A stretch of DNA of 39,558 nucleotides from a virus: positions 1 to 39,558 of the IMG/VR virus record IMGVR_UViG_3300034072_001808. One strand, written 5' to 3'. Of the stretch, positions 1,002 to 39,541 are shown piece after piece. Within the stretch, counting starts at the first letter, position 1; each line of letters opens with the position of its first letter. The notes under the pieces were generated by a model that ran no database searches, was not told the DNA's origin, and saw only the letters and a list, made by a program, of their open reading frames with translations. Made by a program: the position numbers and the translations under genes.

Positions 1002-1181
1002 ATGAAAAGACTTCCGATTTATTTAATATCTTTATTATTTGGCTCATTGACACTCATATACTTGCCAAATTGGGTATTTTTAAGCTATATAGCTATTTAT
1101 ACAATTATTATTTATTATTTTGTGGTGCAATGTTGCAAAGAAATTGCAAAAGAACTTGACAATGATAATTTTGATGATTAG
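1002..1181 (+). CDS. Small two-helix membrane protein (copy 1)
   Basis: The protein is 59 aa if translation starts at the ATG at 1002 (MKRLPIY). A longer frame opens at 957 but overlaps the previous gene. Two hydrophobic stretches (about residues 5-22 and 25-44) are followed by a short acidic tail. Function unknown. The -35 box of the next promoter lies within its last codons and its TAG stop overlaps the -10, so the coding end and the promoter share sequence. Confidence 0.75.
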   Translation: MKRLPIYLISLLFGSLTLIYLPNWVFLSYIAIYTIIIYYFVVQCCKEIAKELDNDNFDD

Positions 1182-1184
1182 ATT
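1156..1184 (+). promoter_or_regulatory. Sigma-70 promoter for the structured leader
   Basis: TTGACA (1156-1161), a 17-bp spacer, then TAGATT (1179-1184). Both hexamers and the spacing are kept in the second copy (39207-39235). Transcription should start near 1191, at the front of the structured leader. Confidence 0.65.
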
Positions 1185-1190
1185 AATTAA

Positions 1191-1486
1191 TAAGTTAATA
1201 AGCAATATATAGTTCTTGGCGGTAGTTTTATTTCATATATTTTTCTACCGCCTCGCTCTCTTGTGATGATGATAAATCGGATGCTACAAAGTTTTATCAT
1301 CATCGCTGGAAAGCGAAAAACCAAGCCGATCGATAAATATAAACATTGGCGATAAATGAAGTATGCTATCCGAGTGCTAGTTTACTGAGGGCTAGCACTA
1401 TAAATTATTTAAATTGCGGGGGCGGTTTAAATAATTAACATCATGGTAGAGTCCCCCGACTCTACCACCAGACCGCAGGGGAACAT
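1191..1486 (+). ncRNA. Conserved structured leader RNA or ncRNA (copy 1)
   Basis: No gene lies between 1181 and 1487. The stretch folds into consecutive hairpins: 1218-1225 with 1245-1252; 1265-1276 with 1293-1304; 1373-1380 with 1392-1399; 1403-1413 with 1426-1436, whose loop is TTGCGGGGGCGG; and 1444-1453 with 1458-1467, loop CCCC. The ribosome-binding site AGGGG (1477-1481) of the next gene follows. In the second copy the first stem has different bases but still pairs (39267-39277 with 39302-39312), and a G.U pair in the second stem becomes A-U. The C-loop can pair with the G-rich loop or with AGGGG, so two alternative pseudoknots are possible. Candidate cis-regulatory RNA or processed small RNA; no known class recognised. 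Confidence 0.7.
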
Positions 1487-1834
1487 ATGACAGATACTAA
1501 AATTAGGGACTCAAAAGGAAATATTTATAATTCGTGCCCTTTTATCGACAAGATAATTGAATTTTTCGATACTCAAATTGAAAGTGCTAATGCTATTAAA
1601 GTTGAGTTAGAAAATGTTAGGTCAATTAATAGCGAGCTTAGGAAAGAATTGTCAGGGGAAGATTACAAAGATAAGCTTAAAATAGTTGAAGATTACTTGG
1701 GAGTTCATTTTGAAGGTCATTGGGAAAAATGGTTTGAATCAAATGTAAAAGAAATTGCTGATAAAATCAAAGAACTTGAAAAAGAAAATCAAGAACTAAA
1801 GGAAGAAATAAACAATTTGACTAACAAAAATTAA
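1487..1834 (+). CDS. Coiled-coil protein downstream of structured leader
   Basis: This 115-aa acidic protein of unknown family has a long Glu/Lys coiled coil from about residue 85 to the end and a predicted helical middle. It starts with MTDTKIRDSKGNIY. Its ribosome-binding site (GCAGGGG, 5 nt before the ATG) is unusually strong for this genome and lies directly after a stable hairpin, so translation may be controlled by the leader RNA. First gene of the replication-initiation segment. Confidence 0.8.
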   Translation: MTDTKIRDSKGNIYNSCPFIDKIIEFFDTQIESANAIKVELENVRSINSELRKELSGEDYKDKLKIVEDYLGVHFEGHWEKWFESNVKEIADKIKELEKENQELKEEINNLTNKN

Positions 1835-3204: not shown

Positions 3205-3660
3205 ATGAAAAATTATGAACGAAAAGAACCAAAAAATATAATCGATTACGATTATTTTTTTAATCAAGTTGAAAGCTTGGTCAAGGAAAAGATAATTAAA
3301 ACTCCATTTCATACTTATGAAACCGCCAAAATTGAAGGGTGGTTAGGTTTTGAAACTAAAGTTGATGATTGGGGTAATATTAACAAAGCTGGCATAACTC
3401 TTGGTTTGCTTGGTTATTACCGAATGAATTTTGCTATTCAATATAAAATTTTAGCTAATGTAGATAATCGAGTGGCTATTTACGAACCAAGATTTGTAAA
3501 TTTTTTTCGCAGTTCTCCGTTTAAAGACCAAGTTTTAAAAAATGGCAAAGTGTCAAAAGAATTGGTAAAAAGTGAACATTTTGATATAATCAAATCTCAA
3601 TTTTATCATGTTAATTCATCTTTTAATTTTGATGAATTTGTTATTAACTTAAATAAATAA
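3205..3660 (+). CDS. Hypothetical protein, 151 aa
   Basis: Unrecognised soluble protein with many aromatic residues (a GLLGYYRMNF segment near the middle). It starts at AAAAATATATG and follows the previous gene by 6 nt, so it belongs to the same transcript. Confidence 0.75.
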   Translation: MKNYERKEPKNIIDYDYFFNQVESLVKEKIIKTPFHTYETAKIEGWLGFETKVDDWGNINKAGITLGLLGYYRMNFAIQYKILANVDNRVAIYEPRFVNFFRSSPFKDQVLKNGKVSKELVKSEHFDIIKSQFYHVNSSFNFDEFVINLNK

Positions 3661-3665
3661 AATAT

Positions 3666-4097
3666 ATGAAAACACAAGAAATAAAAGAATACAACCGCAA
3701 AAAGATTATTTGTGCTATTCATAAGATTGAGGATTATGAGGAAGCTTCAGTAAAAGAGTTAGGGGTCGGCTGTAAAATTAAGGTTAAAAATGACTTTGGT
3801 GAAAAAATGCTAATCATTGGTCAATATTGCGATTTATTTCTTACTTACATAAAGCCACCAGAATTTTCGGAATATTTTGAAATAACTGAAATTATTGGAA
3901 AGCCATTAACTCTTGACAAGGTTTTATTATCTTTAGAGCCATATTCTAACAATTACGGCTTTATTGCTGGCAATATTGCTAAAATTGATCGAAAAAAACA
4001 AACTTATAGTTTTATTTGCAAATGGGATTTAGAGAAAGAAGCACTTGAAGAACAAAGTGAAAAAACTCAAAAAGCAATTTATGAATTATTAAGTTAA
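3666..4097 (+). CDS. Hypothetical protein, 143 aa
   Basis: Unrecognised. The first half is beta-rich (VGCKIKVKNDFGEKMLIIG) and the C-terminus is a Glu-rich helix. It is preceded by the AAAATATATG start context and lies 5 nt after its upstream neighbour. Confidence 0.75.
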   Translation: MKTQEIKEYNRKKIICAIHKIEDYEEASVKELGVGCKIKVKNDFGEKMLIIGQYCDLFLTYIKPPEFSEYFEITEIIGKPLTLDKVLLSLEPYSNNYGFIAGNIAKIDRKKQTYSFICKWDLEKEALEEQSEKTQKAIYELLS

Positions 4098-5525: not shown

Positions 5526-6020
5526 TTAAATGGCTAGTGTTGTGGTGGAATAAGACACTAACTTTTGAGTGAAAAACTCAATACACTACTTGAAAAGTGT
5601 GCCGACGAATACACAACCCACGAAATCGGAACTCCGCAAGGAATGAATAGCGATAATGAGTTGTAATGCAAAGGTGAAAGTCCTTTGCCAACACTAGCTT
5701 TTTGAATATTTAACTCGGCACGGGTAAAGATGAGTGCGAAAGTAAGTTTTTCGACTGGAAGGGTTTCTGTTATTGAAATAAAAAAACCGCAAAGTGACCC
5801 TCGGGAAAGTCCGACCAAACCTAGCCTAGGTAAAGATGAAGGCAAAAATATTAGACAACGAAAGTTGAGCTAGTTAATCCTCGAAAGAGGTCATTAATCA
5901 AGCGGTTAAGTTTAGTTAATTATATTTAATACTAAACCTCTGGAACGAGCAACCTCACTTACTTTCATCGCTTAAGTAAGTTTAAAGAGTGAGGCAGTTA
6001 TCCCTTCTGTAAAAAGGGAA
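5526..6020 (+). ncRNA. 3' part of candidate large ornate RNA (GOLLD/ROOL-like)
   Basis: This is 495 nt without a credible gene and densely paired. Stem 5533-5542 with 5689-5698 (10 perfect pairs) encloses hairpins 5565-5570/5576-5581 (loop GAAAA), 5583-5587/5596-5600 and 5668-5674/5682-5688. Further hairpins are 5762-5766/5784-5788, 5801-5804/5811-5814, 5819-5823/5827-5831, 5879-5882/5887-5890 (GAAA tetraloop), 5910-5916/5931-5937, 5953-5957/5990-5994 around 5958-5964/5974-5980, and 6001-6006/6014-6019. GGTAAAGATGA occurs twice (5723-5733, 5829-5839). GOLLD and ROOL are giant phage-associated RNAs often beside tRNAs; the match is by size, setting and complexity, not by a consensus search. Confidence 0.62.
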
Positions 6021-6045
6021 TTATTAACTTAAAACAAAAAAATAT

Positions 6046-6321
6046 ATGAATATTGTCTTTGGAAACTTCGAGGCAGAAACAAGAAAACAATTAATCAATC
6101 AAATTGTTGATTATGCTTGCGATAATGAATTTTCTATACCCATTATCAATGAAGGTTTTATTGTTTATAAAAATGGCATTAAAAAAACACTATGCCAAAA
6201 AGCAATCAATAAAATCAATTTAAAAATCGAAAAAGCAGTTGAATCGGCAGAAAAAGAATATAATGAGTCTAAAGCCGAAAAAATGGCGGTGAATAATGAT
6301 TATTTTAGTAATTTAATTTAA
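6046..6321 (+). CDS. Hypothetical protein, 91 aa
   Basis: Unrecognised; predicted helical, with a Lys/Glu-rich C-terminal coiled coil. It is the first gene after the RNA/tRNA region and has the full A-rich leader (ATTAACTTAA, then AAAAATATATG). It is probably expressed by read-through from the 4952 promoter. Confidence 0.75.
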   Translation: MNIVFGNFEAETRKQLINQIVDYACDNEFSIPIINEGFIVYKNGIKKTLCQKAINKINLKIEKAVESAEKEYNESKAEKMAVNNDYFSNLI

Positions 6322-35222: not shown

Positions 35223-35281
35223 TGTTTTCAGAAAATTAAATTAGATAAATTTAATTATATTAACTTAAATAAAAAAAATAT

Positions 35282-35491
35282 ATGAAAATAGAAAAAGGTT
35301 TTATAACTAAAGTTCCCTTAGAGCATCAAATAGAAGAAAATGCGGTCGCTTTTCAAAAAGTAAAAATAACATTTGAATATTTTGGCCAAACAATATCAGA
35401 AATTTTTGACACAAGAATTTTGGAAAATGGAGAGCAAAGGGTTATCGGCGGGAATAACTTTATTAAACATGATTCTTTAATTACTAACTAA
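35282..35491 (+). CDS. First early protein, 69 aa
   Basis: Unrecognised beta-rich protein (VKITFEYFGQTISEIFDT). First gene after the strong rightward promoter, so probably made at once on infection. It starts from ATTAACTTAA plus AAAAATATATG. Confidence 0.75.
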   Translation: MKIEKGFITKVPLEHQIEENAVAFQKVKITFEYFGQTISEIFDTRILENGEQRVIGGNNFIKHDSLITN

Positions 35492-35500
35492 TTACTAACG

Positions 35501-35542
35501 ACACCACACAAAAACCCGCTTATTAACTTAAAATAAAAATAT
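35501..35542 (+). repeat. Repeated 5' leader unit (before 35543)
   Basis: ACACCACACAAAAACCCGCT, then TATTAACTTAA and an A-rich tract ending at the ATG. Shared with 9800, 35733 and 36181. Confidence 0.7.
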
Positions 35543-35725
35543 ATGAATTTAAAAAAAATGGAAAAGATTCTATCAGAAAGAATGGAATGCTTGCTTAACG
35601 AAAAAAAAATAAATCAAAAATACAATTCTTTTAAAAATCAAACTGAAGCTGAAAATTGGCTAACATGGCTTGCGATTTCTACTTTATGTTTAAATAAGAA
35701 CCAATTAAATAAGAATAAAAACTAG
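35543..35725 (+). CDS. Small early protein, 60 aa
   Basis: Unrecognised, basic and helical (EAENWLTWLAISTLCL near the middle). Bracketed by two copies of the leader unit, so it could move as a cassette. Confidence 0.68.
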   Translation: MNLKKMEKILSERMECLLNEKKINQKYNSFKNQTEAENWLTWLAISTLCLNKNQLNKNKN

Positions 35726-35775: not shown

Positions 35776-35874
35776 ATGACTATTCAAATTCTCACAGAAA
35801 TTCAATTAATTTTAATTATTCTTTTATCTTTATTCACTATTAGCTCATTAGCTTATTTTATCAATAAATTATAA
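35776..35874 (+). CDS. Tiny membrane protein, 32 aa
   Basis: ATG 35776 to TAA 35872-35874. A single hydrophobic helix (about residues 8-29, LIQ then ILLSLFTISSLAYFI) in a 32-aa protein. Supported by the leader unit before it and lack of another gene in the gap. Function unknown; such peptides often act on host membrane proteins. Confidence 0.6.
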   Translation: MTIQILTEIQLILIILLSLFTISSLAYFINKL

Positions 35875-35901
35875 TAATTATTAACTTTAATAAAAAAATA
35901 T

Positions 35902-36171
35902 ATGAAATACATTACTTACAAAATTGCAAGCTTTATTTGCGGACAAGATTTAGAAAATTTTTTCAATTATTCATCTGCTAGAGACGAGTATTATTACGAA
36001 TTAGAAACTAAAGACGAAAAAATTGGACACATTCGCGAAGTAGCTGAAAATTTATTTAGTCAAGAAATTGGAAATAAAACAGCTACTAGAATTTATAATT
36101 TTTTAGAAGCTGATTACGATGATCAAAATGAGCGATATTATCAACTTAAATCTTTAAAATATCGCAAATAA
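35902..36171 (+). CDS. Small early protein, 89 aa
   Basis: Unrecognised; acidic, with many Tyr and Asp/Glu residues. ATTAACTTTAAT plus AAAATATATG start context. Confidence 0.72.
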   Translation: MKYITYKIASFICGQDLENFFNYSSARDEYYYELETKDEKIGHIREVAENLFSQEIGNKTATRIYNFLEADYDDQNERYYQLKSLKYRK

Positions 36172-36180
36172 TTAAACAAA

Positions 36181-36220
36181 ATCACCAAAAAACCCGATTA
36201 TTAACTTAAAATAAAAATAT
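36181..36220 (+). repeat. Repeated 5' leader unit (before 36221)
   Basis: ATCACCAAAAAACCCGATT, then ATTAACTTAA and AAAAATATATG. A slightly diverged member of the leader family. Confidence 0.65.
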
Positions 36221-36415
36221 ATGAAAAAAAACAAAAACAAAAATAATAAAACTCCTAGTTCTATAACTATAGAAGTTTATAATCATAATGGATTGTTATT
36301 GTATCAAGAAAATTTGGTTCCGGGATTAATTTATTTTCATGGAATAACAAGAATTAAACAAAAATTTGATAATAACAAAAATGTTATAAAACAAATTCCA
36401 AAATTTACTTATTAA
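36221..36415 (+). CDS. Small basic early protein, 64 aa
   Basis: Unrecognised; a Lys/Asn-rich N-terminus, then a beta-rich stretch (SITIEVYNHNGLLLYQENL). Could bind nucleic acid, but no motif supports it. Confidence 0.65.
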   Translation: MKKNKNKNNKTPSSITIEVYNHNGLLLYQENLVPGLIYFHGITRIKQKFDNNKNVIKQIPKFTY

Positions 36416-36636: not shown

Positions 36637-36669
36637 TTTTAGTTTTAAGCTAGAAACTAGCGACTAAAA
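36637..36669. promoter_or_regulatory. Composite inverted repeat after RHH gene
   Basis: TTTTAGT (36637-36643) pairs with ACTAAAA (36663-36669), and inside it GCTAG (36649-36653) pairs with CTAGC (36657-36661). No T run follows, so an operator or RNA structure is likelier than a terminator. Confidence 0.5.
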
Positions 36670-36702
36670 TAAAAATAATTATTAACTTAAATTAAAAAAA
36701 AT

Positions 36703-36915
36703 ATGAATATTTTTAAACTCGGTAAAAAAGTCCTTTCTGGAAACTTATCAAAAAATGATTTATTAATTGACTCAAAAATTTTAATAAATGCAGGAATACA
36801 ATATTATAAAAAATATGATGATGAATATTTAAATTGTTTAGAATCAAATAAAGGCTGGTTTGAAATTTGCACAATATCTCATATAGCTGAATATATCAGA
36901 CAAATCAAAAAATAA
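36703..36915 (+). CDS. Small early protein, 70 aa
   Basis: Unrecognised; helical, with KAAxN-poor, Tyr-rich middle. It starts from an ATTAACTTAA plus AAAAAATATG context after the composite inverted repeat. Confidence 0.68.
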   Translation: MNIFKLGKKVLSGNLSKNDLLIDSKILINAGIQYYKKYDDEYLNCLESNKGWFEICTISHIAEYIRQIKK

Positions 36916-39052: not shown

Positions 39053-39232
39053 ATGAAAAGACTACCGATTTACATGCTATCCTTATTATTTGGCTCATTA
39101 GCACTCAAATACTTGCCGAGCTGGGTATTTTTAAGCTATATAGCTATTTATACAATCATTATTTATTATTTTGTGGTGCAATGTTGTAAAGAAATTGCAA
39201 AAGAACTTGACAATGATAATTTTGATAATTAG
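39053..39232 (+). CDS. Small two-helix membrane protein (copy 2)
   Basis: Second copy of 1002-1181 with several conservative changes. The following promoter again overlaps its end. Confidence 0.75.
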   Translation: MKRLPIYMLSLLFGSLALKYLPSWVFLSYIAIYTIIIYYFVVQCCKEIAKELDNDNFDN

Positions 39233-39235
39233 ATT
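39207..39235 (+). promoter_or_regulatory. Promoter of structured leader (copy 2)
   Basis: TTGACA (39207-39212), a 17-bp spacer, TAGATT (39230-39235), the same as at 1156-1184. Confidence 0.65.
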
Positions 39236-39240
39236 AATTA

Positions 39241-39541
39241 GTAAGTTAATAAGCAATACATTGTATCGAGGTGGCGGTTTTTAATCTTCATATATTTTTA
39301 CCCGCCACTTCGCCTTCTTGTGATGATGATAAGCGGATGCTACAAAGTTTTATCATCATCATTGGAAAGCGAAAAACCAAGCCGATCGATAAATATAAAC
39401 ATTGGCGATAAATGAAGTATGCTATCCGAGTGCTAGTTTACTGAGGGCTAGCACTATAAATTATTTAAATTGCGGGGGCGGTTTAAATAATTAACATTAT
39501 GGTAGAGTCCCCCGACTCTACCACCAGACCGCAGGGGAATT
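39241..39541 (+). ncRNA. Structured leader RNA (copy 2)
   Basis: Same hairpin series as 1191-1486. First stem 39267-39277 with 39302-39312 has new bases but pairs fully; second stem 39321-39332 with 39350-39361. The last three hairpins, the G-rich loop, the CCCC loop and the AGGGG site are unchanged. Confidence 0.7.

Follow-up and report, generated by a model that had tools for sequence, protein, structure and literature searches.

The window analysed here is the whole of IMG/VR record IMGVR_UViG_3300034072_001808, a stretch of 39,558 bases with a G+C content of 30%, whose gene content (terminase, portal, amidase and RecT/RecE-like genes) is that of a tailed dsDNA phage. The terminase is 46% identical to those of Acinetobacter phages, matches of other proteins are weak, and RecT, used as a host marker, found no match in 84,980 prokaryote genomes. 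The locus of interest is a leader that fills the space between the end of an ORF at 1181 and an ATG at 1487. The features to which we refer are the following.

1156..1184, + strand: promoter-like site, TTGACA-N17-TAGATT (equivalent in haplotype 2 at 39207-39235)
1191..1486, + strand: structured leader RNA of 296 nt, haplotype 1
1487..1834, + strand: first gene behind the leader, encoding a coiled-coil-like protein of 115 aa, the occupant of the slot discussed below
39243..39541, + strand: haplotype 2 of the leader RNA, within the overlap between the contig ends
5277-5512: three clustered tRNA genes (Met, Asn, Trp)
3631-3671, 6011-6051, 35247-35287, 35497-35565, 35866-35906, 36175-36243 and 36667-36707: copies of a recurring A+T-rich gene-start leader

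The last entry is an observation separate from the structured leader: an A+T-rich sequence (about TTATTAACTTAAAATAAAAATATATGAA) without a Shine-Dalgarno site recurs ahead of many window genes, and might serve as a translation or promoter signal in this group of phages.

A first-pass annotation of the window, made from the sequence alone, had described two copies of the structured leader. Both sequences are indeed present, but the contig ends (1-1503 and 38440-39558) align end to end, with ~94-96% identity within genes, a 126-aa gene (330-710) being present in the left end and absent from the right copy. The overlap runs from the first base to the last, as would be expected where a circular or permuted genome has been closed imperfectly, and the copies are therefore most probably divergent haplotypes of one locus rather than a duplicated leader. 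The true genome is likely to be ~38 kb, circular or permuted.

The haplotype 1 leader has a predicted folding energy of -101.6 kcal/mol, compared to -65.9 +/- 4.5 kcal/mol for shuffled sequences (z = -8.0), and none of 100 shuffles folded as well as the natural leader; the haplotype 2 leader gave z = -5.7. The first hairpin, which had been claimed to be built from different stem bases in the two copies and still to pair, behaves as described: GGCGGTAG (1218-1225) with CTACCGCC (1245-1252) in copy 1, and GAGGTGGCGG with CCGCCACTTC, which are other bases, in copy 2, with all bases paired in each. The loops and the ribosome-site region also lie at the positions annotated for them, as do all the other features that the annotation named. 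The haplotypes differ at 1 of 175 sites in 1309-1483, whereas 33 of 479 sites differ in 712-1190, which flanks the leader (Fisher p = 5e-4), so that the claim of a nearly invariant last ~175 nt amid variable surroundings held between the haplotypes. The label "hyper-conserved", however, does not extend to the family, since hairpins P4 and P5 within that stretch vary strongly in relatives, with compensation.

The first-pass annotation had also called for a covariance-model search for homologues. Here relatives were found, in other viral contigs, by protein and DNA pattern searches, and a covariance model then confirmed them. The 115-aa protein encoded next to the leader, used as a query, led to six contigs, each with a related leader; further relatives were found with DNA patterns drawn from the leader, and a pattern for the stretch from P5 to the 3' arm gave an additional, more diverged group. 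Hits of looser patterns (L026 and L030-L037) lay in unrelated coding DNA and were rejected as chance, and most of the extra hits from the P5-to-arm pattern were judged to be chance as well. When seven relatives, without the window, were used to build a covariance model, it recovered the window leaders (E ~1e-16, for haplotype 1, and 3e-19) and the diverged group (~7e-30 or better). The resulting set comprised 19 distinct leaders, the two window haplotypes and 17 from other viral contigs; a truncated pair with the 3' end cut (L011 and L014) was used besides these.

At their gathering cut-offs the Rfam 15 covariance models matched nothing but tRNAs, both in the window and in five loci that carry relatives, and at permissive E values up to 10 or 5 no leader match came near any cut-off. 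A sensitive blastn search of annotated phages and plasmids gave short A+T matches or nothing, and no leader relative, and the exact leader pattern had no match in the same 84,980 prokaryote genomes. The leader is an RNA family so far undescribed and absent from Rfam. Three leader-bearing records near full length (36.6, 37.6 and 39.2 kb) contain no detectable relative of the window terminase, and the leader therefore crosses phage lineages.

In the alignment of the 19 leaders, 97.0% of 910 cells in P1-P5 were paired, and 24 of the 51 pairs had changed on both sides (120 cells). When the partners were slid by 1-3 columns as a control, only 36-48% of cells were paired and 4-7 pairs had changed on both sides. 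The covariation score was 0.399, compared to 0.155 for shuffled letters and 0.03-0.08 (maximum 0.081) for slid partners. Unique strand pairs on the + strand included 25 G-U against 4 A-C, an excess indicating that selection acts on the transcribed RNA. The leader therefore has a conserved structure at the RNA level, and the requirement that a cis-regulatory leader show conserved structure with compensatory changes in the transcribed strand is met; the absence of covariation in a larger alignment, which the annotation had named as grounds for refutation, was not what we found. The structural elements upstream of the arm are as follows.

1218..1252 (1218-1225 / 1245-1252), + strand: hairpin P1; both sides changed in 6 of 6 core pairs (unique relatives), 100% paired
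1253..1316 (1253-1275 / 1294-1316), + strand: long hairpin P2; both sides changed in 11 of 21 pairs, 96% paired
1325..1350 (GCCGAT 1325-1330 / ATTGGC 1345-1350), + strand: hairpin P3; both sides changed in 4 of 6 pairs, 99% paired
1365..1371, + strand: conserved GCUAUCC, a possible partner of the P2 loop
1373..1399, + strand: extra hairpin AGTGCTAGT / GGCTAGCACT, from the predicted fold, in the window type only
1405..1434, + strand: hairpin P4 with loop CGGGGG (1417-1422); stem 100% paired, loop complementary to the P5 loop in 4 of 4 alleles
1445..1466, + strand: hairpin P5 with loop CCCCCG (1453-1458); both sides changed in 6 of 8 core stem pairs, 100% paired

Within P2 an internal element, CUU opposite UGG, is invariant, and the stems on either side of it vary (e.g., UCGC/GCGA to UCAC/GUGA and GUGAUG/CAUCGC to AUUCUC/GAGAAU); the hairpin ends in the loop GGAUGC (1279-1284). 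This loop is complementary to GCUAUCC in the window with one bulge, but relatives have U-U mismatches and there is no support from covariation, and a second pseudoknot here remains no more than a possibility. In L061 P3 and its loop are replaced entirely with the stem retained, and several relatives have two small GNRA-loop hairpins (GGA-GAAA-UCC, and CAGUC-GCAA or GUAA-GACUG) inserted between P3 and P4. The weakest-supported hairpin is P4, with a single pair changed on both sides. Two further pairings were dropped: that of the 5' end GUUCU with GGGGAAC, which occurs in the minimum-energy fold of copy 1 and is missing from copy 2, and a closing stem GGC/GCC around the leader RNA, which is broken in L006 and L015.

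The P5 loop has two potential partners, the P4 loop, with which it would form a kissing contact (the kiss), and an arm just ahead of the start codon, with which it would form a pseudoknot. Both pairings use one register of the P5 loop in all four alleles found, and are therefore mutually exclusive. Given that automatic alignments that included the window misplaced its P4, these pairings were counted on strands set by hand. The arm and the alleles (in the order P4 loop / P5 loop / arm) are as follows.

1478..1482, + strand: 3' arm GGGGA, separated by 4 nt from the start codon, the alternative partner of the P5 loop
CCCCCG allele (window): CGGGGG / CCCCCG / GGGG(A)
CGCAC allele (L001, L002, L004, L006, L050): GUGCG / CGCAC / GUGCGG
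AUCCAC allele (L010, L012, L038, L047, L056, L057, L060, L061, L062): GUGGAU / AUCCAC / GUGGAG
CUCCAC allele (L015, L049, L054): GUGGAG / CUCCAC / GUGGAG or GUGGAA

For the kiss 95.8% of cells were paired and 5 of 6 pairs had changed on both sides; for the pseudoknot, in which the arm (GGGG, GUGCGG or GUGGAG) covaries with the P5 loop, these values were 90.0% and 3 of 6. Random re-pairing of alleles matched the observed pairing in 0.04-0.05 of trials for each contact, and with only four independent loop alleles this test cannot fall far below 0.04. The sixth pair of the kiss is U-A in the AUCCAC allele and G-C in the CUCCAC allele, and the matching arm base is G in all members but one; since this pair varies while the arm base stays G, the kiss is supported independently. 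In the window the kiss is predicted to be the stronger pairing (-11.5 compared to -8.7 for a short pseudoknot of 4-5 pairs), whereas in relatives the prediction favors the pseudoknot (about -14 to -17.5 compared to -8.5 to -10), and neither state is therefore obviously the resting one.

In every intact leader 2-6 nt separate the end of the arm from the AUG. It had been annotated as a ribosome-binding site, which is right as to position but not as to sequence, since no Shine-Dalgarno motif is conserved in the arm, and a Shine-Dalgarno-like site precedes just 11 of the 51 window ORFs. The more general proposal, that of a structured leader in which the P5 loop could switch between its neighbor loop and the ribosome site, is supported in that both alternative pairings covary across the four alleles; the switching itself has not been shown, and an effect on translation is inferred.

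Of the 19 leaders checked, among them the truncated L014 (L038 is incomplete on its 5' side), 17 have a sequence of the form TTGA[CT]-N15-19-TAnATT no more than 130 nt ahead of P1, compared to 1% of random windows. The site resembles sigma-70 and Bacteroidota promoters alike, and with it the leader also meets the second expectation for a cis-regulatory element, that of a 5' UTR with a promoter ahead of it and a start codon at its end.

The gene that follows the leader differs between phages. The 115-aa protein of the window matched no family model above curated cut-offs, and the other occupants are unrelated small proteins of no known family and, in L050, an HNH endonuclease (L050:8831-9220, 129 aa, a relative of the PtuB/Cas9 HNH domains). 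Because the flanking neighbors are conserved on both sides, the position behind the leader is an exchangeable gene slot. Two slot genes are stacked in L001, L023, L050 and L060, and ahead of the second lies a remnant of the arm, CGTGGAGCATATG; the tandem arrangement is as follows.

L023:136-370, L001:5349, L050:9222 and L060:3202: tandem slot genes with the separator TTTGACTAACAAAAATTAA or a near copy, then (C/G)CGTGGAGCATATG

In L001 and L050 the remnant is of a foreign allele, mismatched to the P5 loop of the same leader, and therefore looks like a scar of recombination. As a side observation, the stacking is integron-like, and no recombinase was identified. In L011 and L014 one deletion has removed the 3' side of P5, the arm and the slot gene and left the 5' domain in place (about 970-1180 and 775-985, respectively), and L020 has a slot gene without a leader.

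Comparison with known systems identified partial likenesses only. By analogy, the closest mechanism would be that of the IncI-alpha/IncB/IncL-M rep leaders, exemplified by ColIb-P9 repZ, in which a loop-arm pseudoknot near the start decides translation and a competing loop contact opposes it; in those leaders, however, competition comes from an antisense RNA and a leader peptide takes part, whereas the competitor in the phage leader is its own neighboring hairpin. No plasmid sequence match, replication gene or antisense RNA was identified, and the downstream ORF is not a rep gene. The mechanism of the repZ pseudoknot is taken here as general background; references to it are collected in PMC10724649, one of which describes the pseudoknot in its title as a molecular switch for translation. 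Translational riboswitches of the preQ1-II and SAM-II type likewise cover the ribosome site with a loop-arm pseudoknot as the expression platform, but the phage leader has no Rfam match and fails the expectation of a conserved aptamer with a consistent downstream pathway, the P3 loop being replaced in L061. Since the downstream genes are unrelated and form no pathway, a metabolite ligand is unlikely. The T4 gene 32 leader is also a phage mRNA leader in which a pseudoknot controls translation, but there the gene's own protein binds the leader, and given that the protein behind our leader differs from phage to phage, autogenous control is unlikely.

In portability the closest known elements are the PeSL cassettes of T4-type phages (PMC4503421), which place a portable promoter and stem-loop between shuffled small early genes. 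PeSLs, however, are short units of promoter and terminator that recur throughout a genome, whereas the leader described here occurs once in a genome, as a multi-hairpin RNA of ~250-350 nt that lacks a terminator and has its loop-arm pairing at the AUG; the PeSL definition of a promoter with a terminator-like stem-loop in many copies is not met, as the window genome has one leader and no U-run follows its hairpins. The dicistrovirus intergenic IRES is similarly a compact RNA of several pseudoknots, the last adjoining the start codon, but it belongs to eukaryotic RNA viruses and acts by decoding mimicry without a spacer, and the phage leader has no covariance match to this or any other Rfam family. 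Group I introns, the IscB omega RNA (HEARO) and other RNAs of RNA-guided nucleases also gave no Rfam match, and the HNH gene follows the leader only in L050.

We lean, with moderate confidence, toward the view that the leader is a portable cis-acting 5' translational switch serving the exchangeable slot. The leader would be transcribed from its own promoter-like site and fold into P1-P5. In the kiss state the P5 loop would sit on the P4 loop, leaving the arm ahead of the AUG free and allowing the ribosome to load, whereas in the pseudoknot state the P5 loop would hold the arm and close the ribosome landing site. Given that P4 and P5 are transcribed ahead of the arm, the kiss could form first, and the balance between the states may be set by folding time, an unknown ligand, a protein or ribosome traffic. 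We prefer the pseudoknot as the OFF state because the arm lies inside the ribosome footprint, and because the leader precedes many unrelated small genes we consider that it serves the slot rather than sensing the product of any one gene. The formation of both states, their control of translation, the pseudoknot as OFF and any trigger are all inferred, without transcript or expression data. Weighing against this view are the small number of independent loop alleles, the pairing energies that favor different states in the window and in relatives, the shortness of the window pseudoknot, the survival of the 5' domain without slot gene and arm in L011 and L014, and the slot gene of L020 that has no leader.

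An alternative with the opposite sign is that the leader is an activator resembling an IRES, in which the P5-arm pseudoknot is the ON state and either recruits the 30S subunit or presents it at a position 2-6 nt ahead of the AUG, the kiss being the OFF state or a folding intermediate. The constant proximity of the pseudoknot end to the AUG, the scarcity of Shine-Dalgarno-like sites and the added GNRA-capped hairpins of some relatives, which are typical of RNAs with tertiary structure, would all be consistent with this proposal, and the repZ pseudoknot of ColIb-P9 does activate translation. On the other hand, the spacing to the AUG varies naturally from 2 to 6 nt, a three-way complementarity is superfluous for a pure activator, and pairing within the ribosome footprint usually represses; we therefore consider activation unlikely. 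In its boldest form, which is less likely still, the leader would be the first IRES-like element of prokaryotes, carried by a DNA phage, a portable RNA whose terminal pseudoknot would alone bring ribosomes to the AUG and could be gated by a kissing loop; were it true, any captured gene would be expressible in a host making little use of Shine-Dalgarno sites.

We also doubt that the leader is an independent noncoding RNA that is made from a promoter of its own, works in trans on RNAs or proteins of the host and lies next to a gene only incidentally. The promoter-like site, the tertiary look of the 5' domain and the survival of that domain in L011 and L014 despite loss of the arm and slot gene favor it, but inspection of the sequence found no terminator-like U-run after the leader RNA, covariation between the arm and P5 is found directly at the AUG in all intact members, and an ORF always occupies the slot. 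The weakest proposal, a DNA site (a hairpin recombination, origin or packaging site that captures adjacent cassettes, as the swapped and sometimes stacked genes with their arm remnants and shared end might suggest, and of which the annotation had raised the replication and packaging forms), is very unlikely in view of the G-U bias of the + strand, of an arm that keeps its place just ahead of the AUG and of a promoter-like site preceding 17 of the 19 leaders, and given that no recombinase was identified beside the leader and that homologous recombination between shared flanks by the phage RecT and RecE explains the exchange.

The leader is portable, being used by phages whose packaging genes do not detectably match, and the gene that it precedes is the most variable one in the region. 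If the proposed translational switch works, a newly captured phage gene would be put under ready-made translational control. A switch geometry in which three elements covary is rare, and here it belongs to an undescribed RNA family with strong covariation. Should it function as proposed, it would be a compact natural switch whose states could be tested by exchange of the natural alleles.
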